A stretch of DNA of 47,529 nucleotides from Clostridia bacterium (GTDB lineage Bacteria; Bacillota; Clostridia; Christensenellales; Aristaeellaceae), in NCBI GenBank assembly GCA_017938695.1, contig JAGBBA010000002.1, positions 1 to 47,529 of the forward strand. Reading direction: 5' to 3'. Position numbers and translations under genes: made by a program. This document shows, piece by piece, positions 33,426 to 45,964 of this stretch (positions are counted from its first letter, which is position 1; every line of letters starts with the position of its first letter). The notes beneath the pieces were generated by a model. That model was given only the letters and a program-made list of their open reading frames with translations, was not told the DNA's origin and did no database searches.

Positions 33426-33962
33426 TCAGGCCTTTTGCTGGTTCATTGCAAAGGAGATGATATCTGCAACGGCCTCCACAATCAGAGAGATGCCAGTGAA
33501 AACCCACAGATAGACCGTAGTGGCAAAGGGATTGAAGAAAATGATCAGAGAGCAGATGATCGCAATGGCTGCGGAAATCGCAACGATATACCACCGATCA
33601 TTGCCCAGACGGCGCTGATCAACGGCAGTCTGGATCTTCTCCACGCCCAGCATCATCAACGCCACCGCATAGATGATTCCCAGGAAAGGTACAGCAGCCA
33701 TCAGCCACTGATAGCGGAAGGCACAGAAACCGCCGATCAGCAGCATGATCAGACCACGGGAAAGACTGCGCTGTTCCGCTGCTGTTTGGGCAGAGGTGCG
33801 GAAGTAACGGATGATCTCCAGCAAGCCCTTGACCATCAGGCCAATGCCGGCACAGATAATGATGCCGGAGGTAAAGCCTACGGGCTTGATCAGCAGCAGA
33901 ATACCGACGATCAGCTCTGCCACACAGAGGATCAATGCGTTGATTTTCTTATCCTTGTTCAT
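33426..33962 (-). CDS. HdeD-like membrane protein (DUF308)
   Basis: A 178-residue membrane protein with about six helices arranged as three repeated hairpins, each of LIxGIxxL-type. Marks include LIVGILLLIKPVGFTSGIII and a matching AISAAIAIICSLIIFFNPFATT. HdeD in E. coli is linked to acid stress; the role in clostridia is unknown. ATG at 33962 behind AAGGA. Third gene of the radical SAM-degV-hdeD operon, 16 bases after degV. Confidence 0.8.
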   Translation of the reverse strand: MNKDKKINALILCVAELIVGILLLIKPVGFTSGIIICAGIGLMVKGLLEIIRYFRTSAQTAAEQRSLSRGLIMLLIGGFCAFRYQWLMAAVPFLGIIYAVALMMLGVEKIQTAVDQRRLGNDRWYIVAISAAIAIICSLIIFFNPFATTVYLWVFTGISLIVEAVADIISFAMNQQKA

Positions 33963-33978: not shown

Positions 33979-34866
33979 TTATCTGTTGTTTCCAAAGTAA
34001 ATGAGTGCCAGCACACCGGGGCCTGCGTGTGCGCCAATGATGGGGCCGATGTCGGCGATGATGACCTGCGCCTCCGGGAATCGGCTGGTGATCATGTCAG
34101 CAAGGCTCGCGGCAGTATTCGGGCAATTCCCATGACCGATCACAATGCGGCGGCTGATGTCCGGCAGCCAACCGGCTTCCAGGTACTCCATCAGCTTGCG
34201 CAGCGCTTGCCGCTGGCCGCGCGGCTTCTGCATGGCTTGCAGCTTGCCCTGTTCATCCACATGCAGGAGGGGCTTGATATTCAGGATAGTTCCCATGGCA
34301 GCCGCAGCCGCTGATACTCTGCCGCCGTGCTTCAGATGCGCAAAGGTATCCACCGTGAACCAGTGACAGACCTGCAGGCGGTGCTGCTCGATCCATTGCG
34401 CCAGCTCGTCAATGGAAAGCCCTGCTGCCTGCAAACGGGCGGCTTCATGGACAAGAAGCCCCTCGCCGATGGAAGCGGCAAGCGAATCAACACAGAGGAT
34501 CTTTCGCTGCGGATATGCTGCCTTCAGCTCTGCAATGCACATTCTTGCAGCATTGATCGTGCCGGAAAGCCCGGAAGTAAAGCAGATATACAGTACGTCA
34601 TACCCGCTTTTCAGCGCCTTCTCAAAGGCTTTGCGGTAGGTCTGGGGATTGATCTGCGAGGTGGATGCAAACTGTCCCTCGCGCAGCATCTGGTAGAATG
34701 CGTCCGTCATGAGATTCCCATGCGGCCCGTAGGTGTAGGCGGCATCACCCACCTGTACCTCCATGGGAATGACCTCGATGGACGGCAGTCCGCTTTGCAG
34801 CGCCGTGTTCAGGTCAGCCGTTGCATCCGTGAATATCCTGTAGGACGGAAACACCTGCGTTGCCAT
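33979..34866 (-). CDS. DegV family fatty-acid-binding protein
   Basis: A 295-residue protein of the EDD fold (DegV/DhaK). Marks: RIFTDATADL at the N-terminus, STSQINPQTY, CFTSGLSGTINAAR (ligand carboxylate contact), DSLAASIGEG, VDTFAHLKHGGRVSAAAAAMG, LNIKPLLHVDEQGK, GHGNCP and IGPIIGAHAGPG. Some members (FakB) present bound fatty acids to the kinase FakA. No FakA-like gene is near. The ATG at 34866 lies two bases after the stop of the radical SAM gene, so expression is coupled. Confidence 0.9.
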   Translation of the reverse strand: MATQVFPSYRIFTDATADLNTALQSGLPSIEVIPMEVQVGDAAYTYGPHGNLMTDAFYQMLREGQFASTSQINPQTYRKAFEKALKSGYDVLYICFTSGLSGTINAARMCIAELKAAYPQRKILCVDSLAASIGEGLLVHEAARLQAAGLSIDELAQWIEQHRLQVCHWFTVDTFAHLKHGGRVSAAAAAMGTILNIKPLLHVDEQGKLQAMQKPRGQRQALRKLMEYLEAGWLPDISRRIVIGHGNCPNTAASLADMITSRFPEAQVIIADIGPIIGAHAGPGVLALIYFGNNR

Positions 34867-34868
34867 CG

Positions 34869-36221
34869 TTATTTCCCCTTGCAGCCGGAGCAATGTGCGC
34901 AGCTCCACAGTTCATCCGCCTTGGGCGTCCAGTTGGCGGCATAAGGCGTGGTCTTGTCGCAGAGGTGATCCACGTCCTCCGGGCTTTCGTAGTCCGTGCT
35001 GACAGCGCCGGTGGCCTTGACCATGGCCCGCAGCTTTTCGGGATTCTCCAGCATCGGGCAGGGACGCAGCATGTTGTCGTTGAAGGGCTGGCCTTCCTTG
35101 TAGGCCATGAACAGCGGGCTCTTGAGGGCTTCCAGCAGCGTCACGTCATGGATGTTGCAGTTGGAATAGTGGATGAACACGCAGGGTTCCACATCGCCCT
35201 TGGCGTTGATGTGCAGATAGTTCCTGCCACCGGCAATGCAGCCGCCCACATACTCCGCGTCGTTCTGGAAGTCCATGGAGAAGATCGGCTTGGTCTGACG
35301 GTAGCTGCGGATGCGCTTCATGACGGTCTCGCGCTGATCGGGCGTAGGCAGCAGTTCAGGCGCGGCGGCATTGCCCACGGGCATGTAGTGGAAGAACCAC
35401 ACGAACAGCGCGCCGGAATCGATCATGTAGTCGAAGAATTCCTCGCTGGAGATGTCGGCGTAATTCTTGCTGGTGTAGCAGGTGGAAATGCCGAAGGGCA
35501 GCTTGTGTTCCTTCAGCAGCCGCATGGCGTTTGCAACCTTCTGATATACGCCCTCGCCGCGGCGGCCATCGTTGGCGTCCTCGAAACCTTCCAGAGAAAT
35601 GGCAGGCACAAAGTTCTTCACACGCAGCATCTCCTGGCAGAATGCCTCGTCGATCAGCGTGCCGTTGGTGAAGGACAGGAACTCGCAGTCCGGGTGCATC
35701 TCGCACAGCTTGATCAGATCAGCCTTGCGTACCAGCGGCTCGCCGCCGGTGTAGATGTAGAAGTAGGTGCCCATCTCCTTGCCCTGGCGGATGATGGAAT
35801 CAATGGTTTCCAGGCTCAGGTTCAGGCGGTTGCCGTACTCGGCAGCCCAGCAGCCGGTACAATGCAGGTTGCAGGCAGAGGTAGGATCCAGCAGGATCGC
35901 CCACGGCACGTTGCAGCCCTCGCGCTTCTTCACTTCTTCCTGAATGGCGCTGCCCTTCAGGCTGGCGTTGAACAGGAAGTTCTGGAAGAATGCCTTGCGC
36001 ACGCCGGGATCCAGCTCGTAAAGCTTCAGGATCAGCTGATACCAGTTGTTCTTCTCGGCAATCGCGGTGCGCAGAGCGGAACGCTGCCCCTCGTACCAGC
36101 CTTCGGGCAGCAGCTTGTCTGCCAGCGCCATCAGCTTGGGGATATTCTCGTCCGGGTTGCCCTCGATGTACTTCAGGGCCTGGTTGACAGCAAATTGCTG
36201 CACGGTGTCTTTTACGCTCAT
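34869..36221 (-). CDS. Radical SAM enzyme of unknown reaction
   Basis: A 450-residue protein. Residues 1-105 are an alpha-helical extension. The radical SAM core begins at PWAILLDPTSACNLHCTGC, with the cluster cysteines C117, C121 and C124 (CX3CX2C), and YTGGEP at 157-162. Then follow SFTNGTLID and ISLEGF. The C-terminal ~130 residues are rich in cysteine (GGCIAGG, PCVFIHYSNC, LRPCPM, CAHCSGCKGK at the very end), so one or two auxiliary Fe-S clusters of SPASM-like type are likely. Start at 36221 with AAAGGAG eight bases upstream. First in an operon with DegV and HdeD-like genes; a divergent paralogue lacks the cluster motif. No peptide substrate gene is visible. Confidence 0.87.
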   Translation of the reverse strand: MSVKDTVQQFAVNQALKYIEGNPDENIPKLMALADKLLPEGWYEGQRSALRTAIAEKNNWYQLILKLYELDPGVRKAFFQNFLFNASLKGSAIQEEVKKREGCNVPWAILLDPTSACNLHCTGCWAAEYGNRLNLSLETIDSIIRQGKEMGTYFYIYTGGEPLVRKADLIKLCEMHPDCEFLSFTNGTLIDEAFCQEMLRVKNFVPAISLEGFEDANDGRRGEGVYQKVANAMRLLKEHKLPFGISTCYTSKNYADISSEEFFDYMIDSGALFVWFFHYMPVGNAAAPELLPTPDQRETVMKRIRSYRQTKPIFSMDFQNDAEYVGGCIAGGRNYLHINAKGDVEPCVFIHYSNCNIHDVTLLEALKSPLFMAYKEGQPFNDNMLRPCPMLENPEKLRAMVKATGAVSTDYESPEDVDHLCDKTTPYAANWTPKADELWSCAHCSGCKGK

Positions 36222-36281: not shown

Positions 36282-36379
36282 ATGGGACAGATGTGGACCA
36301 TCCGTCCCATTTTGCGACAGATGCGGCAAAGTGTTACACTTTGGGACAAACGGCAGGAAGTGTCCCTTGTTGCTGTCCC
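36282..36379. promoter_or_regulatory. GGGAC/GTCCC operators between the divergent radical SAM genes
   Basis: Two inverted repeats: ATGGGAC (36282-36288)/GTCCCAT (36304-36310) with a 15-base spacer, and GGGACA (36343-36348)/TGTCCC (36361-36366) with a 12-base spacer. A further TGTCCC half-site lies at 36374. The second repeat has the same layout as the one at 38816-38839 in front of the P-type ATPase. I infer binding by the TetR/DhaS-like regulator encoded at 37481-38026. Confidence 0.65.
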
Positions 36380-36426: not shown

Positions 36427-37437
36427 ATGGCGGCAAGCACCAACCGCATTCTGATCGAGACCTTTGTCCGCAAGGCGCTGCGGGATGTCCAGTCCGCGCC
36501 GGAGCGGAGCATCCGCAATCTGGTGGATATGGGGCTGACCTTCAGCAAGGGGCGGTTCCAGACCCGGCTGTTCCAGAGCGTGCAGCATATGCTGACGGAT
36601 GAACACAGTGCCTATTATCCGCTGGTTCGCAACATCGTGACCAATGTGGAGCATGACCGGCTGCTGAACTTTGGCATGAACGTGGGATACAACAGCTGCA
36701 CCCTGGGCGCAAGAAGAATCAGGCAGATCGAAGCCGAAGAGGGCTTCAACATTCCGTGGACGCTGTATCTGGAAATCGACAAGGCGACCTTCACGCAGCA
36801 TCAGACGGACTATGATGACCTGATCTGCCAGGGCAAGGAGCTGGGCATCTACACCTGGTTCATTTCTGCAGGCGATCTGTGTACGGAGCTGTTTGACCTG
36901 CTGGTGAAGCACGACGACTGCGCTTTTGCCCTGCTGTGCAATGCCGAGAGCCTCACCGACGAGATGCTGGAGGAGCTTGCCGGACTGCCCCACACGCTGG
37001 TCAGCATAGAGCTGTGCGAACAAGCAGAGGCGTTGTGCAGCGAGCTGCGTCAGCGCAAGCTACTCTACGCCGTCCACAAAACCTATACCAGCAGCGACGT
37101 GCCGGAGATCCTCAATGATGATCTGCTCTACGATACCCAGAGCCTGCAAGCGCCCATCACCGCGCTGATCCCCGGTAAGGACTGCACCGACGCAGAACGC
37201 AAGCAGGTCTTTGACTACATCCTTCGAAAGCGGGAGGGGCAGGATTTCGCCACCATCCTGTGGGATGTGGTGCAGGACGTGCTGGGCATCGACACCATCA
37301 TTTCGGAGGACTGCTGCTCTGCAGGGTTCAAGGCAGACGGAACCTTCTTTGTGCTGGCAGATCAGCGCGATACCAGCGATTGGAATCTGTTCCGGCATGA
37401 TTTGAAAACGATCTTACAGAGTTGTCTCCAGAAATAA
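36427..37437 (+). CDS. Radical-SAM-like protein lacking the cluster cysteines
   Basis: A 336-residue protein. By eye it aligns along most of its length with the divergent radical SAM enzyme. ALRDVQSAPERSIRNLV matches ALKYIEGNPDENIPKLM. EEGFNIPWTLYLEID (104-118) matches REGCNVPWAILLDP. DLICQGKELGIYTWFISAGD matches SIIRQGKEMGTYFYIYTGGE. KTYTSSDVPEILNDDLLYD matches the CYTSKNYADISSEEFFDYM stretch. The segment that should hold CX3CX2C is missing, GGEP has become AGDL, and the Cys-rich C-terminus is gone. So it cannot bind the SAM cluster and is probably a pseudoenzyme partner or regulator. ATG at 36427 behind GGAGG; a strong terminator follows. Confidence 0.72.
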   Translation: MAASTNRILIETFVRKALRDVQSAPERSIRNLVDMGLTFSKGRFQTRLFQSVQHMLTDEHSAYYPLVRNIVTNVEHDRLLNFGMNVGYNSCTLGARRIRQIEAEEGFNIPWTLYLEIDKATFTQHQTDYDDLICQGKELGIYTWFISAGDLCTELFDLLVKHDDCAFALLCNAESLTDEMLEELAGLPHTLVSIELCEQAEALCSELRQRKLLYAVHKTYTSSDVPEILNDDLLYDTQSLQAPITALIPGKDCTDAERKQVFDYILRKREGQDFATILWDVVQDVLGIDTIISEDCCSAGFKADGTFFVLADQRDTSDWNLFRHDLKTILQSCLQK

Positions 37438-37443
37438 AAATAC

Positions 37444-37475
37444 ACGCGTCGGATGCTGTGTCCGGCGCGTTTTTC
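37444..37475 (+). terminator. Intrinsic terminator after the radical-SAM-like gene
   Basis: ACGCGTCGGA (37444-37453) and TCCGGCGCGT (37461-37470) form a 10-bp stem with one G-T pair, followed by a T-run; A-rich DNA on the left may let it work for the opposing TetR transcript as well. Confidence 0.85.
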
Positions 37476-37480
37476 GTATA

Positions 37481-38026
37481 TCAATCATCATACTTTTTCA
37501 GAATGTACTTGGCGGTGGCAAGGATGCAGGAGAAGAAGTGCGGAATGAATTCCTCCGGCGGCTCGCAGTTTTCGTCCCTGATCCATCGGATGATCGCCCC
37601 CAGCAGCGCATCCAGGAAGAAGGTGATGTAGAAGTCGGGGGCGGTTTCCTCTGCCAGGGCGTCCCGCATCCTGTCCTGCAATATGGGCGCGGCGATTTCC
37701 CGGATATGCTCGCTCAGGGAGTTCTGGCCCTGCACGGAAAGCGCATTGCGATAAAACGCGCGGTTGTCGTAGAGAATACGGAACAGCGTGGTCAGCTCCT
37801 TGACCGACTGATCCGGCGTGCCCTTTTCGATCAGCCCAATGAACTCCATGTCAAAGATCCAGTTCATCAGCTCATACTTATCCTGAAAATGATAGTAGAA
37901 GCTCTTGCGGTTCATGTCGCACTTTTCGCAGATGTCCGCCACGCTGATTTTGGCGAAGGCCGTGGTTTGCATCAGCGTTTTCAGCGCATTGGCCAGCGCG
38001 CGCTTGGTGATGTTCGAGTCAGCCAA
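37481..38026 (-). CDS. TetR-family regulator, DhaS-like
   Basis: A 181-residue regulator starting at TTG 38026, six bases after AAAGGAGGG; no ATG fits. The DNA-binding part reads TKRALANALKTLMQTTAFAKISVADICEKCDMNRKSFYYHFQDKYELMNWIF, the pattern of DhaS-type TetR proteins. As I recall, L. lactis DhaS binds GGACACAT-N6-ATTTGTCC, which is GGACA-N12-TGTCC. That exact geometry occurs twice in this window (36344, 38817). DhaS needs the DhaK-like co-activator DhaQ; the DegV protein nearby has a related fold. Transcribed behind mntP, so under the same Mn riboswitch. Confidence 0.8.
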   Translation of the reverse strand: MADSNITKRALANALKTLMQTTAFAKISVADICEKCDMNRKSFYYHFQDKYELMNWIFDMEFIGLIEKGTPDQSVKELTTLFRILYDNRAFYRNALSVQGQNSLSEHIREIAAPILQDRMRDALAEETAPDFYITFFLDALLGAIIRWIRDENCEPPEEFIPHFFSCILATAKYILKKYDD

Positions 38027-38039
38027 AATACTCCCTCCT

Positions 38040-38597
38040 TTACAGGATGCCCGTATGCTCCAGCAGGATGCAAACACCCATCACCAGCAGGATGATGCCG
38101 CCCGCCATTTCCGCTTTGGACTTGTACTTCGCGCCGAACTGGTGGCCGATGCGCACGCCTGCGGCAGAGAACAGGAAGGTGGTCACACCGATCAACAGGA
38201 TGGCCGGAAGGATGGAAACCTTCATGAAAGCGAAGGTCACGCCCACGGCCAGCGCATCAATGCTGTCGGCGATCGCCAGCGGGAACATGGCCTTTGCGGA
38301 GAAATCCGCATCCAGCTTTTCTGTATCGCCCCGGGCTTCGCGGATCATGTTGACGCCGATGATCGCCAGCAGCGCAAAGGACAGCCAGGGAGCAGCCTTG
38401 GTGACAGCATCGGCAAAGGTACTGCCCAGCAGATAGCCGAGCAGCGGCATCAGCGCCTGTGCGCCGCCGAACCACAAGCCGGTGATGGCCATGTGTTTCT
38501 TCTCCAGCTTTTCCACGCTCAATCCTTTGCAGATGGCGATGGCAAAGGCGTCCATCGAAACGCCGACGGCCACCACAAACAGCTCCCACATGCTCAT
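38040..38597 (-). CDS. mntP: Manganese efflux protein MntP
   Basis: A 185-residue membrane protein with six helices that exports Mn2+. Marks: VAVGVSMDAFAIAICKGL in helix 1 and LAIADSIDALAVGVTFAF in helix 4, the two-fold repeated Asp motif of the MntP (DUF204) family. Start at 38597 with GGAGG seven bases upstream. It follows a leader with a yybP-ykoY Mn riboswitch, which settles the metal. The TetR gene follows after 13 bases in the same operon. Confidence 0.93.
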   Translation of the reverse strand: MSMWELFVVAVGVSMDAFAIAICKGLSVEKLEKKHMAITGLWFGGAQALMPLLGYLLGSTFADAVTKAAPWLSFALLAIIGVNMIREARGDTEKLDADFSAKAMFPLAIADSIDALAVGVTFAFMKVSILPAILLIGVTTFLFSAAGVRIGHQFGAKYKSKAEMAGGIILLVMGVCILLEHTGIL

Positions 38598-38809: not shown

Positions 38810-38846
38810 ACTTTTTGGACAAATGACGGCATCTGTCCAAAAAAGT
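38810..38846. promoter_or_regulatory. GGACA-N12-TGTCC operator upstream of the P-type ATPase
   Basis: ACTTTTTGGACA (38810-38821) and TGTCCAAAAAAGT (38834-38846) form an almost perfect palindrome with a 12-base spacer. An extra TGTCCA half-site lies at 38892. It sits between the divergent mntP promoter and the ATPase gene. It shares its layout with the site at 36343-36366. Confidence 0.72.
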
Positions 38847-38956
38847 AACAGTATTTCCGATCTGTGAAAAAGTGCGACGCTCCAGGAAAGCTGTCCAATG
38901 CATTTTCTGCGCCGCCTGCCTATACTATGCCTATCAACCAAAAAGGAGGATGTCAC

Positions 38957-41572
38957 TTGCTGCATCATCATGAAACTGCGCAAAGCGTGATCGCTGAGCT
39001 TGACTCCGATCTCCAGCTGGGTCTGAGTGCTCAGCATGTGGAAGCAAGGCAAAGGCAATACGGCGAAAACAAGCTGCAGGAAAAGAAGAAGAAAACCAAC
39101 TGGCAGCGCTTTCTGGATCAGTTCAAGGATGTTATGATCCTGATCCTGATCGCCGCCGCTGCGATCTCCTTTGTGATCGCCTGTGTGGAGGGCAATCCCA
39201 AGGAATTCTTTGAGCCGGTGCTGATCCTGCTGATCGTCATCATGAATGCGGTGATGGGCGTGATGCAGGAGAGCAAGGCCGAAAAGGCGCTGGATGCACT
39301 CAAGAGCCTGTCCGCGCCCCATGCCCGAGTCATCCGCGACGGCACGGAGGAAGTGATCGACGCTTCCCAGCTGGTTCCCGGCGACATCATCCGGCTGGAA
39401 GCGGGCGACTTTGTTCCGGCGGATGCACGGCTCATCCGTAGCATCAGCCTGAAGAGCGAGGAATCCGCCCTCACCGGCGAATCTGTTCCTTCTGAAAAGG
39501 ATGCGGATGTGGTCGTGGCGGAGGACGCGCCCCTGGGTGACCGCACCAACATGGTGTTCTCCGGCTGCTCCATCACCTACGGCACGGCGACTGCCATCGT
39601 CACCGCCACGGGCATGAACACGGAGATGGGCAAGATCGCCAACCTGCTGGACAACGAGGAAGAAGGCCAGACGCCCCTGCAGCAGAAGCTGGCGCAGCTG
39701 GGCAAGTACCTGGGCATCCTCGCGCTGGCGGCCTGTGCCATCATCTTCGTGGTGGGCCTGACCAACGGCATCCCGGTGATGGAGATCTTCATGACCGCCG
39801 TTTCGCTGGCGGTGTCCGCCATTCCCGAGGGCTTGCCCGCCATCGTCACCATCGTGCTGTCCATCGGTGTGCAGCGCATGGTGAAGAAGAACGCCATCAT
39901 CCGCCGCCTGCCTGCGGTGGAGACCCTGGGCAGCGCGTCCATCATCTGCTCCGACAAGACCGGCACCCTGACGCAGAACCGAATGACGCTGGTGCAGGCC
40001 TATCTGGACAAGGGCGAGAAGAAGGAAGGCATCAGCAGCGCCAATTCTGCGGAGGTGCGGGAGCTGCTGCGCTACGGCACGCTGTGCTGCGACGGCTCCG
40101 TGTCCTTCCATGGCACGGAGGAGAAGCACATCGGCGATCCCACCGAGACTGCTATCGTTCTGGCCGCCCACAAAAACGGCATGCCTAAAGACGAGCTGAC
40201 CCGCCAGTATCCGCGCCTGGCAGAGATTCCCTTCGACTCCGACCGCAAGCTGATGACCACTGTCTGCCAGATAGAGGGTAAGCTGGTCGCCATTGTGAAG
40301 GGCGCCTTCGACGTGATGGCTCCCCGCTGCATCGCCGGGGATATGCAAGCCGCCCGCAAGGTCAATGATGAAATGAGCAGCAACGCCCTGCGTGTGCTGG
40401 CCATCGCAACCCGCGAGCTGGACGAAATGCCCGCCGAGATCACCCCGGATGTGCTGGAAAAGGACCTGACCTTCCTGGGTCTGGTGGGCATGATCGACCC
40501 GCCGCGCCCGGAGGCCAAGGAAGCCGTCAAGACCTGCCGCAAGGCCGGTATCAAGCCTGTGATGATCACCGGCGACCATGTGGTGACCGCCTCCGCCATT
40601 GCCCGTGAGCTGGGCATTCTTGAGAAAAACGACCGTGCCATCACCGGCGCAGAGCTGGACGCCATGACCGACGCCGAACTGGATGCGCAGGTGGAGAAGA
40701 TCTCCGTGTACGCCCGCGTATCACCTGAAAACAAGATCCGCATCGTAAAGGCATGGCAGCGCAAGGGTCAGGTGGTCTCCATGACCGGCGACGGCGTGAA
40801 CGATGCGCCAGCCCTGAAGGCTGCGGATATCGGCTGCGCCATGGGCATCACCGGCACCGATGTTGCCAAGGGCGCTGCGGACATGACCCTGACCGATGAC
40901 AACTTCGCCACCATCGTGGACGCTGTCCGTGAGGGACGCGGTATCTATGCCAACATCCGCAAGGTGGTGGGCTTCCTGCTGGGCACCAACATCGGCGAGG
41001 TCATCACCGTATTCGTGGCTATGCTGCTGTGGCACAAAACGCCGCTGCTGTCCATGCAGCTTTTGTGGATCAACCTGGTCACCGACAGCCTGCCTGCCAT
41101 CGCGCTGGGCATGGAGGCGGTGGAGGACGACATCATGGAGCAGCGCCCCAAGCCCAAGAACGAGGGCATCTTCGCTCATGGCTTGGGTCTGCGGACGGTC
41201 ATCCAGGGCGTGATGTTCGGTACGCTATCGCTGATCGCATTCTGGCTGGGCGAGAAGCTCACCGGTGTGCTGGAAGGCGGCCAGACCATGGCCTTCATGG
41301 TGCTGGCGCTCAGTCAGGTGGTGCAGGCGTTCAACATGCGCTCTGAGCACTCCCTGTTCAAGATCGGCCCCTTCACCAACAGGAAGCTGAACATGGCGGC
41401 ATTGGCTTCGGTGCTTCTGGTCGCGCTGGTGGCGTTCACGCCCCTGCGCGGTGCATTCGGGTTGATCGTCCTGCCCGGCAAGTGCTACGCCATTGCGCTG
41501 GGGCTGATCCTCGTACCGCTGCTGACCATGGAATGCTCCAAGGCGTTCGGGCTGACGAAGCATCACAGGTAA
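38957..41572 (+). CDS. P-type Ca2+/Mn2+ exporting ATPase (PII-A type)
   Basis: An 871-residue P-type ATPase from TTG 38957, seven bases after AAAAAGGAGG. An in-frame ATG at 38926 lies ahead of that ribosome site and is unlikely. Order: N-terminal cation ATPase region, M1-M2, actuator with LTGESVPSEKD, M4 with IPEGLPAIVT, CSDKTGTLTQNRM (phosphorylated Asp), N domain with VKGAFDVMAPRC, TGDGVNDAPALK, and M6 with WINLVTDSLPA. PEGLP plus NLVTD place it with SERCA/PMR1-like pumps that move Ca2+ and often Mn2+. Its neighbour mntP and the shared control region favour a Mn2+ role. A candidate -10 TATACT lies at 38921-38926. Confidence 0.92.
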   Translation: MLHHHETAQSVIAELDSDLQLGLSAQHVEARQRQYGENKLQEKKKKTNWQRFLDQFKDVMILILIAAAAISFVIACVEGNPKEFFEPVLILLIVIMNAVMGVMQESKAEKALDALKSLSAPHARVIRDGTEEVIDASQLVPGDIIRLEAGDFVPADARLIRSISLKSEESALTGESVPSEKDADVVVAEDAPLGDRTNMVFSGCSITYGTATAIVTATGMNTEMGKIANLLDNEEEGQTPLQQKLAQLGKYLGILALAACAIIFVVGLTNGIPVMEIFMTAVSLAVSAIPEGLPAIVTIVLSIGVQRMVKKNAIIRRLPAVETLGSASIICSDKTGTLTQNRMTLVQAYLDKGEKKEGISSANSAEVRELLRYGTLCCDGSVSFHGTEEKHIGDPTETAIVLAAHKNGMPKDELTRQYPRLAEIPFDSDRKLMTTVCQIEGKLVAIVKGAFDVMAPRCIAGDMQAARKVNDEMSSNALRVLAIATRELDEMPAEITPDVLEKDLTFLGLVGMIDPPRPEAKEAVKTCRKAGIKPVMITGDHVVTASAIARELGILEKNDRAITGAELDAMTDAELDAQVEKISVYARVSPENKIRIVKAWQRKGQVVSMTGDGVNDAPALKAADIGCAMGITGTDVAKGAADMTLTDDNFATIVDAVREGRGIYANIRKVVGFLLGTNIGEVITVFVAMLLWHKTPLLSMQLLWINLVTDSLPAIALGMEAVEDDIMEQRPKPKNEGIFAHGLGLRTVIQGVMFGTLSLIAFWLGEKLTGVLEGGQTMAFMVLALSQVVQAFNMRSEHSLFKIGPFTNRKLNMAALASVLLVALVAFTPLRGAFGLIVLPGKCYAIALGLILVPLLTMECSKAFGLTKHHR

Positions 41573-41719: not shown

Positions 41720-44700
41720 ATGAACCAAGACACAACCATGAAGACTTATCAGGCCGGCATCGACGTGGGCTCCACCACCGTCAAGCTGGTGATTCTGGAT
41801 GAAAAGGGAGATCTTATTTTCGGCGAATACCGCCGCCATATGGCGCAGACCCAGCAGACCCTGGCGCAGCTTTTGCGGGAGGCGCAGGCAAAACTGGGCA
41901 ACTGCGCGCTGAAGGTGTGCATCACAGGCTCCGGCGCGATCAACCTGGGCAAGGCACTCAACATCAGCTTTGTTCAGGAGGTGGTGGCGGTGGCCGCTGC
42001 CCTCCAACACGCTGCGCCCCAGACAGACGTAGCCATCGAGCTGGGCGGCGAGGATGCGAAGATCATCTACTTCACCGGCGGCCTGGAGGAACGCATGAAC
42101 GGCGTGTGCGCAGGCGGCACCGGCTCCTTTATTGACCAGATGGCCGCCCTTTTGCAGACCGACGCGGAAGGGCTGAACAACGAGGCCAAGGCTTATCAGC
42201 GGATCTATCCCATTGCCGCCCGCTGCGGCGTGTTTGCCAAGACGGACATCCAGCCGCTGATCAACGAAGGCGCGGCGCGCGCTGACCTGGCGGCGTCCAT
42301 CTTTCAGGCAGTGGTCAACCAGACCATCTCCGGCCTGGCCTGCGGCAAGCCCATCCGCGGGCATGTGGCATTCCTGGGTGGCCCGCTGCACTTCCTGACC
42401 GAGCTGCAGGCCGCCTTCGTCCGCACGCTGAACCTGACGAAGGAGACCACCATCGACCTGGAGAACAGCCACCTCTTTGCAGCCATGGGCGCAGCGATGG
42501 AGGCAGTCCATGCCGAAGCAGTACCGCTGACTGATCTGGCCGCCCATTTGTCACAGGGCGTGGACATGGCCTTCGAGCTGAAGCGACTTGATCCGCTGTT
42601 TGCCGACCGGGATGAATACATCGCCTTCATCGCCCGGCACGACCACGCCACCGTCCGCAAGGCTGCGCTGTCGGACTATACCGGCGACTGCTTCCTGGGC
42701 ATCGACGCAGGTTCCACCACCACCAAGGCAGCGCTGATCGGCACGGAGGGTCAGCTGCTGTTCAGCTATTATGCCAACAATCAGGGCAACCCCATCCGAA
42801 CGGCCATGGAGGCCATGGCACTGCTGCAAAAACAGATGCCTGCCACCGCCCACATCGCCCGCGCCTGCTCCACCGGCTATGGTGAAACGCTGCTGAAGTC
42901 CGCCTTTTCCCTGGACGAAGGCGAGGTGGAGACCATCGCCCACTGCACCGCCGCCGCTTTCTTCGACCCGAAGGTGGACTGTGTGCTGGACATCGGCGGG
43001 CAAGACATGAAGTGCATCCGCCTGCGGGAGGACTGTGTGGATTCGGTGATGCTTAACGAGGCCTGCTCCTCCGGCTGCGGGTCGTTCATCGAGAGCTTCG
43101 CCAATTCGCTGGGGTATACCGCCCACGACTTCGCCCGGGAGGCGCTCTTTGCCGAGCATCCCATCGACCTGGGCACCCGCTGCACGGTGTTCATGAACTC
43201 CAATGTGAAGCAGGCGCAGAAGGAGGGCGCGCCGGTGGCGGACATCTCCGCAGGCCTGGCGTACTCCGTGATCAAGAACGCGCTGTACAAGGTCATCAAG
43301 CTGGCGGACGTGTCCGAGCTGGGCAAGCATATCGTGGTGCAGGGCGGCACGTTCCACAATCAGGCGGTGCTGCGGGCGTTTGAAAAGATCGCCGGGGTAG
43401 AGGTCACCTGCCCGGATATTGCCGGTATGATGGGTGCATTTGGCGCGGCGCTGATCGCTCGCAGCCGCTACGCAGGTCAGCCCAGCACCATGCTGCCTCT
43501 GGAGGACATCGCCCACCTGGAATATACCACCGCTACCGCCCGCTGCAAGGGCTGCACCAACCGCTGTACCCTGACCATCAACACCTTTCCCGGCGGCAGA
43601 AAGCACATCACCGGAAACCGCTGCGAGAAGGGGCTGGGGACAACAAACAGCGGCCCCAAAGGTGAAAATCTGGTGGAATACAAGCGCCAGCGACTGTTTC
43701 AGTATGAGCCGCTGACGGAAGCGGAGGTGCGTCGCGGCACGGTGGGATTGCCCCGGGTGCTGAACATGTACGAGAACTATCCCTTCTGGGCGACCTTCTT
43801 CCGAGAGCTGGGCATCCGTGCGGTGCTGTCGCCCTTATCCACGCGCAAGCTCTACGAGCTGGGCATGGAGTCCATTCCTTCTGAGTCGGAGTGCTACCCG
43901 GCTAAGCTGGCTCACGGCCATGTGCAATGGCTGATCGACCAGGGCGTGAAGACCATCTTCCACCCCTGCGTTTTCTATGAGCATCAAGAGAGCGACGCGG
44001 CCCAGAACCACTACAACTGTCCCATCGTGGTTTCCTACGCGGAGAACCTGAAAAACAACGTGGAGGCCATCACCTCCGGCGAGGTGCATTACGTCCGCCC
44101 GTTCATCGCTTTCACCAGCGAGCAGACCGCCGCCCAGCGCCTGATCGACGTGTGCGCAAAGGAATGGAACATTCCTGCCAATGAGGTCACCGCAGCCGTC
44201 CATGCCGCATGGGCTGAGCAGCAGCACGCCAAGGAGGACATCCGCCAAAGGGGCGCTGCGCTGCTGAAATCCATGGAGGAACGCGGAGAGTGCGGCATCG
44301 TGCTGGCGGGCCGCCCCTACCACATCGATCCGGAGATCAACCACGGCATCCCGGAGCTGATCGCCTCCTATGGCCTGCACGTCTTCACTGAGGACAGCCT
44401 GCCCCAACTGAACAGCAGCGAGCGTCCGTTGCGGGTGCTGGATCAATGGGTGTACCATTCCCGGCTGTACAATGCGGCGGAGTTCGTCAGCGCCCGCGAC
44501 GACCTGGAATTGGTGCAGCTCAACTCTTTTGGCTGCGGGTTGGACGCGGTAACCACCGATCAGGTGAACGACATTCTGACGGGGAGCAACAAGCTCTATA
44601 CCGTCCTCAAGATCGACGAGGTGAACAACCTGGGCGCGGTGCGCATTCGCATCCGCAGCCTGCTGGCCGCCATGAAGCTACGCCGGGAGCAGAAAATCAC

Positions 44701-45964
44701 CGCTGTCCCTGCCAGCGCGGCCTATCACCGCAGCGAATTCACCGAGGAGATGTACCGCGAGGGCTACACCATCCTCGCACCGCAGATGAGCCCCATCCAC
44801 TTTGACCTGCTGGAGCCGGTGTTCCGCAAATTCGGCTTTCATATGGAGGTGCTGGACAACGACAACCGCACCGCCATCGACACCGGCCTCAAATATGTCA
44901 ACAACGACGCCTGCTTCCCCTCCATCACCGTGGTGGGGCAGATCATGGAGGCGGTGCTGTCCGGGCGGTACGATACGGACAAGCTGGCCATCATCATGAC
45001 CCAGACCGGTGGCTGCTGCCGCGCCAGCAACTACATCGGCTTCATTCGCCGTGCGCTGGACAAGGTGAACCTGGGGCACATTCCGGTGATCTCCCTCAAC
45101 TATGTGGGTCTGGAGAAAAACAGCGGCTTCAAGGTACCCGTGAAGCTGTTGATCAAAGCCGCCCACGGCATTGTGTACGGCGATCTGTTTATGCGCTGCC
45201 TGTACCGGGTGCGCCCCTACGAGAAGGTTCCCGGCGTTGCCAATGCGCTGCACGAGAAGTGGAAGCGGATCGCCATTGACAGCCTGGTGAACGACAGCAG
45301 CATATGGAGCTACCGCAGCGTGTGCAAGGGCATCGTCAAGGCCTTTGATGCTTTGCCCATTGATGAAACGCTCCGCAAGCCCCGCGTAGGCATCGTGGGC
45401 GAAATTCTGGTGAAATACATGCCCCTGGCCAACAATCATCTGGTGGAGTTACTGGAGCGCGAGGGTGCGGAGGCAGTGGTTCCCGATCTGATGGACTTCG
45501 CCAACTTCTGCCTCTACGGCGGCGACTACAAGCACAAGTATCTGGGCGAAGGTCGTTCCTCCCGGGCGCTGGCGAAGGTCGGAGTGGCAGCGATCCAGTT
45601 CCTGCGCCGTCCCGCCCTGCAGGCGCTGAAAAAGAGCCGGCGCTTCGAAGCACCCATGCCCATCGGCAAGGTGGCCGAGCTGGCCAAGCCCTTCCTGTCC
45701 ATCGGCAACCAGTACGGCGAGGGATGGTTCCTCACCGGCGAAATGGCGGAACTGATCACCACGGGCGTGCCGAACATTGTGTGTATCCAGCCCTTCGCCT
45801 GCCTGCCCAACCATGTGGTGGGCAAGGGCGTAATCAAGCAGCTGAAGAAGGCCTATCCGCAGGCAAATATCATTGCCGTGGACTATGATCCCGGTGCGTC
45901 GGAGGTCAACCAGCTCAACCGTATCAAGCTGATGCTGTCCACGGCCAGGCAGCGGATGGAATGA
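41720..45964 (+). CDS. Large 2-hydroxyacyl-CoA dehydratase activase-related protein
   Basis: A 1414-residue cytoplasmic protein. It has two ASKHA ATPase domains: first GIDVGSTTVKLVILDE, LGGEDAKI and CAGGTGSFIDQMA (~8-290); second GIDAGSTTTKAALIG, LDIGGQDMKCIRL, NEACSSGCGSFIESFA (~322-590). A Cys motif CKGCTNRCTL with a further GNRCEKG follows (~608-640). Then comes the DUF2229 part (NMYENYPFWATFFRELG) and a C-terminal HgdB/dehydratase-like part with GGCCRASNYIGF. Activases of this class feed low-potential electrons to dehydratases in an ATP-driven manner. The whole arrangement matches a known family of about this length, whose job is undefined. The ribosome site (GGAATG) is weak; MKTY at 41741 is an alternative start. 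Confidence 0.85.
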   Translation: MNQDTTMKTYQAGIDVGSTTVKLVILDEKGDLIFGEYRRHMAQTQQTLAQLLREAQAKLGNCALKVCITGSGAINLGKALNISFVQEVVAVAAALQHAAPQTDVAIELGGEDAKIIYFTGGLEERMNGVCAGGTGSFIDQMAALLQTDAEGLNNEAKAYQRIYPIAARCGVFAKTDIQPLINEGAARADLAASIFQAVVNQTISGLACGKPIRGHVAFLGGPLHFLTELQAAFVRTLNLTKETTIDLENSHLFAAMGAAMEAVHAEAVPLTDLAAHLSQGVDMAFELKRLDPLFADRDEYIAFIARHDHATVRKAALSDYTGDCFLGIDAGSTTTKAALIGTEGQLLFSYYANNQGNPIRTAMEAMALLQKQMPATAHIARACSTGYGETLLKSAFSLDEGEVETIAHCTAAAFFDPKVDCVLDIGGQDMKCIRLREDCVDSVMLNEACSSGCGSFIESFANSLGYTAHDFAREALFAEHPIDLGTRCTVFMNSNVKQAQKEGAPVADISAGLAYSVIKNALYKVIKLADVSELGKHIVVQGGTFHNQAVLRAFEKIAGVEVTCPDIAGMMGAFGAALIARSRYAGQPSTMLPLEDIAHLEYTTATARCKGCTNRCTLTINTFPGGRKHITGNRCEKGLGTTNSGPKGENLVEYKRQRLFQYEPLTEAEVRRGTVGLPRVLNMYENYPFWATFFRELGIRAVLSPLSTRKLYELGMESIPSESECYPAKLAHGHVQWLIDQGVKTIFHPCVFYEHQESDAAQNHYNCPIVVSYAENLKNNVEAITSGEVHYVRPFIAFTSEQTAAQRLIDVCAKEWNIPANEVTAAVHAAWAEQQHAKEDIRQRGAALLKSMEERGECGIVLAGRPYHIDPEINHGIPELIASYGLHVFTEDSLPQLNSSERPLRVLDQWVYHSRLYNAAEFVSARDDLELVQLNSFGCGLDAVTTDQVNDILTGSNKLYTVLKIDEVNNLGAVRIRIRSLLAAMKLRREQKITAVPASAAYHRSEFTEEMYREGYTILAPQMSPIHFDLLEPVFRKFGFHMEVLDNDNRTAIDTGLKYVNNDACFPSITVVGQIMEAVLSGRYDTDKLAIIMTQTGGCCRASNYIGFIRRALDKVNLGHIPVISLNYVGLEKNSGFKVPVKLLIKAAHGIVYGDLFMRCLYRVRPYEKVPGVANALHEKWKRIAIDSLVNDSSIWSYRSVCKGIVKAFDALPIDETLRKPRVGIVGEILVKYMPLANNHLVELLEREGAEAVVPDLMDFANFCLYGGDYKHKYLGEGRSSRALAKVGVAAIQFLRRPALQALKKSRRFEAPMPIGKVAELAKPFLSIGNQYGEGWFLTGEMAELITTGVPNIVCIQPFACLPNHVVGKGVIKQLKKAYPQANIIAVDYDPGASEVNQLNRIKLMLSTARQRME

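Follow-up and report, generated by a model that had tools for sequence, protein, structure and literature searches.

The gene at the centre of this analysis encodes PSE, a pseudo-radical SAM protein, and the evidence favours a DhaS-like TetR regulator, rather than the divergently encoded radical SAM/SPASM protein (rSAM), as its steadier partner. We tentatively propose that PSE is a dead paralogue of rSAM that may act as a ligand-sensing accessory, or co-regulator, of the adjoining TetR, and we favour this role because the DhaS family offers a precedent, a TetR that is co-activated by the dead enzyme paralogue DhaQ. The TetR gene lies downstream of PSE and tracks it best among its partners, and it was absent from the preliminary description of this DNA. 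The PSE family is apparently undescribed so far, as no description of it was found in the open-licence literature, nor of any pseudo-radical SAM family that has a regulator for a partner. The features needed here, all in the window (the whole stretch of 47,529 nucleotides that was analysed), are as follows.

33426 to 33962, minus strand: DUF308/HdeD-like membrane protein, downstream of rSAM
33979 to 34866, minus strand: DegV-family protein, downstream of rSAM; 109 bits against the FakB1 model, below its cut-off of 350
34869 to 36221, minus strand: rSAM, radical SAM/SPASM protein, 450 aa from ATG; carries CX3CX2C and GGEP and matches the SPASM model
36344 to 36365, no strand: predicted TetR operator GGACA-N12-TGTCC between the rSAM and PSE genes, its first base 83 bp ahead of PSE
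36427 to 37437, plus strand: PSE, pseudo-radical SAM protein, 336 aa, ATG start, no CX3CX2C and no GGE
37444 to 37470, plus strand: terminator-like hairpin between the PSE and TetR genes
37481 to 38026, minus strand: DhaS-like TetR regulator (TetR_N and TetR_C_8), downstream of PSE and convergent with it
38040 to 38597, minus strand: MntP-family putative manganese efflux pump, on the same strand as the TetR gene and upstream of it
38817 to 38838, no strand: second predicted operator GGACA-N12-TGTCC, between MntP and the P-type ATPase
38864 to 41572, plus strand: P-type ATPase, whose best NCBIfam models are calcium-transporting
41720 to 45964: large CoA-enzyme activase (BcrAD_BadFG and DUF2229)

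The preliminary description had aligned PSE with rSAM by eye over about 250 residues, and had seen in it a complete frame with a ribosome site and a terminator that had lost CX3CX2C and GGEP, all of which stood up to closer analysis. By sequence comparison the resemblance is shown to be homology: BLASTP of PSE against the window rSAM gives E = 9e-11 (22% identity over 258 columns) and hhalign of profiles from 29 PSE and 16 rSAM sequences gives E = 5.4e-42 (probability 100%) over 326 columns, longer than the stretch first noticed and reaching the part opposite the start of the SPASM region, where PSE stops. Searches with a PSE profile pick up rSAM proteins, often across model positions 11-333 of 338, and PSE forms a single group (SH-aLRT 100%) in a tree of 29 PSE and 16 rSAM sequences. 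The loss of the motifs is real too: neither CX3CX2C nor the GGE motif of SAM binding occurs in any of the 31 PSE proteins (0/31 for each). The ATG of PSE is preceded by GGAGG in the window sequence and the frame is followed by the hairpin at 37444-37470, to be read against a background of six such hairpins in the scanned stretch and 2.4 in shuffles.

Library searches with the PSE of the window returned no Pfam match up to E = 1, no match among PDB sequences up to E = 10 and a single chance match in NCBIfam (E = 0.043). The 29 PSE members had no match in Pfam, including its SPASM model, none to the NCBIfam radical SAM models at E up to 0.01, and one chance match in NCBIfam, by one member (Prp protease, E = 0.0043). 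The PSE alignments omit G010, a near-copy of G004, and the fold alignment also omits L104 (from G237), which carries masked letters.

Structure prediction, which the preliminary description had suggested alongside a profile search, gave an AlphaFold model of PSE (pLDDT 92) whose top matches are radical SAM structures, and a partial TIM barrel of radical SAM type without a cluster site is a confident prediction from it. The model has a five-helix N-terminal domain, the partial barrel and a C-terminal hairpin; the Foldseek and VIA structure lists behind these matches speak for the families present in them and barely probe the N-terminal helices. Seven residues are invariant in the 29-row alignment (R27, R30, Y63, G94, W111, G140 and I292), of which all but G140 and I292 fall at or before W111. 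PSE sequences share a mean pairwise identity of 0.43 in the N-terminal domain and 0.22 in the barrel, a pattern reversed in rSAM, whose N-terminal helical domain is of the same kind (0.35 and 0.69, the two proteins being compared through alignments of unequal depth). As judged from these alignments, PSE is most tightly constrained in its helical domain and rSAM in its active-site barrel.

Enzyme-derived regulators are already known, and so are radical SAM relatives without a cluster in model libraries. NCBIfam includes a pseudo-radical SAM family, TIGR04347, and TIGR04150 of Bacteroidales is another such family. Both are like PSE in being radical SAM relatives without the cluster motif, but the 29 PSE members match no radical SAM model in that library, which includes TIGR04347 and may include TIGR04150. 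The radical SAM/SPASM enzymes SuiB, SkfB, PqqE and anSME differ from PSE, which is without CX3CX2C, GGE and a SPASM match.

The PSE and rSAM genes of the window diverge across a 205-bp intergenic region. The rSAM subfamily is widespread (found in 86 of the 391 genomes of the class, E up to 1e-90), without a name in the libraries searched, and carries a highly conserved IPWAILMDPTSACNLHCTGCWAAEYG stretch. We gathered 31 PSE loci in related genomes: 11 came from 100 relatives, one from a contig titled Lachnospiraceae and the rest from order and class samples, which added seven from 347 genomes of the order and 12 from 391 of the class. An rSAM gene lies within 1.1 kb of PSE in 12 of the 31 loci, divergent in 11 and co-directional in one (G127), and a patatin gene separates divergent PSE and rSAM in G004 and G010. 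Eight PSE genomes have rSAM elsewhere, and in 11 of the 31 no rSAM of the same subfamily was found at cut-offs of 1e-60 or 1e-90; several of these are incomplete, and they include G675 (99% complete), G466 (98%) and the single-contig G091 (95%).

In the order sample, rSAM is present in 8/12 PSE genomes and 22/335 others (Fisher 4.7e-7), at a cut of E up to 1e-100 that was chosen after the list had been seen, with a second group starting from about 1e-78. The class sample gives 10/14 against 76/377 at E up to 1e-90 (Fisher 7.8e-5), and since the samples overlap and their genomes are akin, the two tests are not independent trials. Co-occurrence of rSAM with PSE is above chance. Read from the other side, PSE is absent from 22 of 30 rSAM genomes in the order sample and from 76 of 86 in the class sample. 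The two genes had been expected to co-occur, with homologues lacking any radical SAM neighbour counting against their pairing; the co-occurrence and the frequent divergent arrangement held, but 11 genomes lacked a detected rSAM, which goes partly the way of that refutation and argues against PSE as an obligatory subunit.

We also inspected 33 rSAM loci without an adjoining PSE, eight of them from genomes with PSE elsewhere. A TetR gene was called near rSAM in 12, directly upstream and on the same strand in seven, and these TetRs mostly fall outside the group of the PSE-linked ones; the association of rSAM with TetR regulators is therefore wider. In G445 (L205) a TetR of the PSE-linked group lies directly before rSAM, and PSE was not found in the genome, a locus where PSE was possibly lost and the TetR-rSAM link kept.

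At 25 of the 31 loci a gene for a DhaS-like TetR lies no more than about 5 kb from PSE; in 23 it converges on PSE and in two it runs in the same direction. Five of the remaining six genomes (G225, G426, G171, G025 and G049) carry it at another place, and their TetRs fall in the main PSE-linked group (98% SH-aLRT); the sixth, G034 (97% complete), has PSE, and a TetR search there gave nothing reaching E = 1e-20. Fifteen genus-mates without PSE have just two weak TetR paralogues (E about 1e-29 and 1e-30). A TetR profile, with rows from five of the 12 PSE genomes and none from the other seven, found 23 of 314 genomes in the order sample at E up to 1e-40, namely the 12 with PSE, without exception, and 11 of the 302 remaining (Fisher 8.7e-16), the 302 being counted as PSE-free from earlier PSE searches and 271 of them not being listed individually. 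Where the tree divides PSE-linked from rSAM-linked TetRs, the 11 extra ones all go with the former, most of them nested among these, so this TetR is not confined to genomes with PSE; this extended tree omits the RS rows L220, L223 and L111, G010 and seven weaker paralogues. In G164 (L283), where PSE was undetected, the TetR gene is flanked by rSAM and a divergent P-type ATPase gene, with operator-like sites, and GGACATTTTGCCGAAACTGTCC lies between rSAM and TetR. The TetR gene of G115, another of the 11, lies with rSAM and a patatin gene.

The window TetR scores 121.3 bits against the DhaS model TIGR02366, under its cut-off of 129, as do all three members compared (121.3, 125.3 and 123.7 bits), and it matches the solved DhaS 2iu5 (E = 6.5e-15) and 4mk6, a probable dihydroxyacetone kinase regulator (E = 2.6e-22). 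Distances among PSE proteins correlate with those among TetRs (r = 0.83, 25 genomes). Where rSAM is linked (12 genomes), PSE-TetR stands at 0.92 and PSE-rSAM at 0.70, and PSE-rSAM reaches 0.86 in the eight genomes with unlinked rSAM and 0.62 over all 20. The value of 0.86 makes the mirror-tree argument weaker, and its support is weak because the correlations still include species signal. A regulon link between PSE and TetR is well supported.

All exact five-base palindromes with spacers of 0-16 were enumerated in 30 PSE upstream regions, omitting G010 as a near-copy of G004 and making no use of the DhaS consensus. GGACA-N12-TGTCC was the commonest, occurring in 9 of the 30, whereas any palindrome reached at most four in 100 dinucleotide-shuffled sets; the exact form was not found in the other 21 PSE promoters. 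A predicted operator before PSE genes is well supported statistically, and its layout is that of the Lactococcus lactis DhaS operator, which we take to be GGACACAT-N6-ATTTGTCC. Across 18 PSE genomes there are 17 exact sites against four for the reversed control, seven at PSE loci, one at the G091 ATPase and nine elsewhere. Eight of these nine were inspected and showed no common theme apart from the pair G434 and G634, which share a site near serS and an alcohol dehydrogenase gene (read from translations).

PSE and the ATPase gene lie about 49 kb apart in G091, with the predicted operator before both. A P-type ATPase matched at cut-off in 18 of the 22 PSE genomes searched, and control of this ATPase by TetR in general was rejected, the exact operator standing before it only in the window and G091 among those genomes. 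No exact operator preceded 14 ATPase genes from 14 genomes without PSE (24 searched), and at TetR genes of loci without an adjoining PSE the best core matches were 6-8 of 10 (13 cases), none exact. Two more palindromes in the rSAM/PSE intergenic region of the window, GGGAC...GTCCC and CAAAGTG...CACTTTG (36282-36343), may be extra regulator sites.

The DegV and HdeD-like genes had been suggested as further parts of the system, and a unit of PSE, rSAM, DegV and HdeD was given up, since DegV occurs in 7 of the 31 loci and HdeD near PSE in the window only. FakB proteins belong to the DegV family, and the FakB1 model that the window DegV protein matches under the cut-off is described as fatty-acid-binding. 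A patatin phospholipase gene lies beside PSE or rSAM in G004, G010, G047, G693 (L212) and G115; together, the patatin and DegV neighbours make a lipid theme that is suggestive only. At four loci of one family (L037 in G081, L102 in G106, L103 in G225 and L105 in G214), PSE lies directly before an FtsH protease gene and is divergent from a P-type ATPase gene, and FtsH is also found near PSE in G654 and G466. A gene of the CoA-enzyme activase cluster is also near PSE in G434 and G634.

Two described systems touch on this theme. In the accessible part of PMC12647141, FasR (SPV_0647) of Streptococcus pneumoniae is a TetR regulator of membrane fatty acids encoded beside fakB3, which is like the window in placing a TetR near a FakB-type gene in a membrane context; that part of the source mentions no radical SAM partner, and the likeness drawn here is one of gene context. 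The Mss/Tes membrane-spanning lipid synthases are, in the accessible parts of PMC13274423 and PMC8941075, radical SAM enzymes acting on lipids. Such an identity for the window rSAM was dropped as doubtful, its match to GDGT-MAS having just E = 0.2 and a Z below those of RiPP maturases.

The closest precedent for PSE and its TetR is the dha operon of Lactococcus lactis, in which DhaQ, a paralogue of the enzyme subunit DhaK, was reportedly described by Christen and colleagues in 2006 as the co-activator of DhaS. The likeness lies in a TetR related to DhaS whose companion is an enzyme paralogue without catalysis, whereas PSE is a radical SAM paralogue and not of DhaK type, the regulated genes differ and an interaction of PSE with TetR is only inferred here. 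PSE is not itself a DhaQ, since both its homology and its predicted fold are of the radical SAM kind. DhaQ is also named as coactivator of the DhaKLM operon in the accessible part of PMC7911632.

Under the co-regulator proposal, PSE would have lost its cluster and SAM motifs and then become a ligand-sensing accessory of TetR. Its barrel may bind a small molecule akin to the rSAM substrate or product, and its conserved N-terminal helical domain, by a presumed contact, would alter TetR activity at GGACA-N12-TGTCC operators. The genes governed through these predicted operators would be PSE, those of the divergent rSAM operon and the nearby membrane genes for the P-type ATPase and MntP, and in other genomes the membrane genes under control could be FtsH and patatin phospholipase. 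From the neighbour genes, our guess is that the ligand is a membrane lipid or fatty acid. The fuller idea, that a dead rSAM paralogue senses the substrate or product of rSAM and switches a membrane regulon, which would make a second, independent case of the DhaQ-DhaS kind with a different fold, we regard as slightly more doubtful.

Part of the evidence would look much the same if PSE were no sensor at all. The presence of TetR near PSE in 25 of 31 loci, and in 12/12 PSE genomes against 11/302 others, agrees with a co-regulator, but a mere target gene of TetR would co-occur with it equally; same-group TetRs without PSE, in those 11 genomes and in G445, suggest that TetR can work alone, and G034 has PSE without such a TetR. 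We also weighed PSE as a stand-alone pseudoenzyme effector, controlled by TetR but not bound by it, whose task would be to bind or pass on a membrane-related molecule. The operator before PSE and the co-occurrence with TetR require regulation only, and TetR in genomes without PSE, like PSE in 11 of 31 genomes without a detected rSAM of the subfamily, would fit such an effector, yet the idea leaves the origin from an rSAM paralogue and the proximity of rSAM in 12/31 loci unexplained by itself, and we consider it somewhat less likely than a co-regulator. The co-regulator proposal draws further on the conservation of PSE being concentrated in the N-terminal domain, the reverse of rSAM, on GGACA-N12-TGTCC being the top palindrome before PSE, on the TetR matches to 2iu5 and, below cut-off, to the DhaS model, and on the DhaQ-DhaS precedent. 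It must accommodate an exact palindrome in only 9 of 30 PSE promoters and, among 22 PSE genomes, before the ATPase only in the window and G091; PSE distances follow TetR closer than rSAM in linked-rSAM genomes (0.92 against 0.70), but the unlinked PSE-rSAM value of 0.86 is as high as the 0.83 for PSE-TetR.

Less likely again is a role for PSE alongside the divergent rSAM, as its non-catalytic subunit or substrate carrier. The shared N-terminal domain, full-length homology, divergent placement in 11 loci and co-directional placement in one across several families, enrichment of rSAM in PSE genomes and correlated distances (0.70 with linked rSAM, 0.86 with unlinked rSAM and 0.62 for the 20 genomes together) would all suit a subunit, but the 11 PSE genomes without a detected rSAM of the subfamily and the absence of PSE from most rSAM genomes (22/30 and 76/86) would not. 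A new catalytic activity of the barrel that needs no Fe-S cluster is improbable: the barrel model is well formed, but the barrel is less conserved than the N-terminal domain (0.22 against 0.43), and just two of the seven invariant residues, G140 and I292, are placed beyond W111. That PSE is a functionless, decaying copy is hardly credible, as the low barrel identity that could hint at decay is set against frames that are intact across many families of the class, listed PSE matches without internal stops, a single tree group, a conserved N-terminal domain, and a TetR partner with an operator.

If PSE is indeed a ligand-sensing co-regulator of its TetR, it would give a way into a radical SAM family of this class that is still uncharacterised, and the ligand of PSE would point to the substrate of rSAM.
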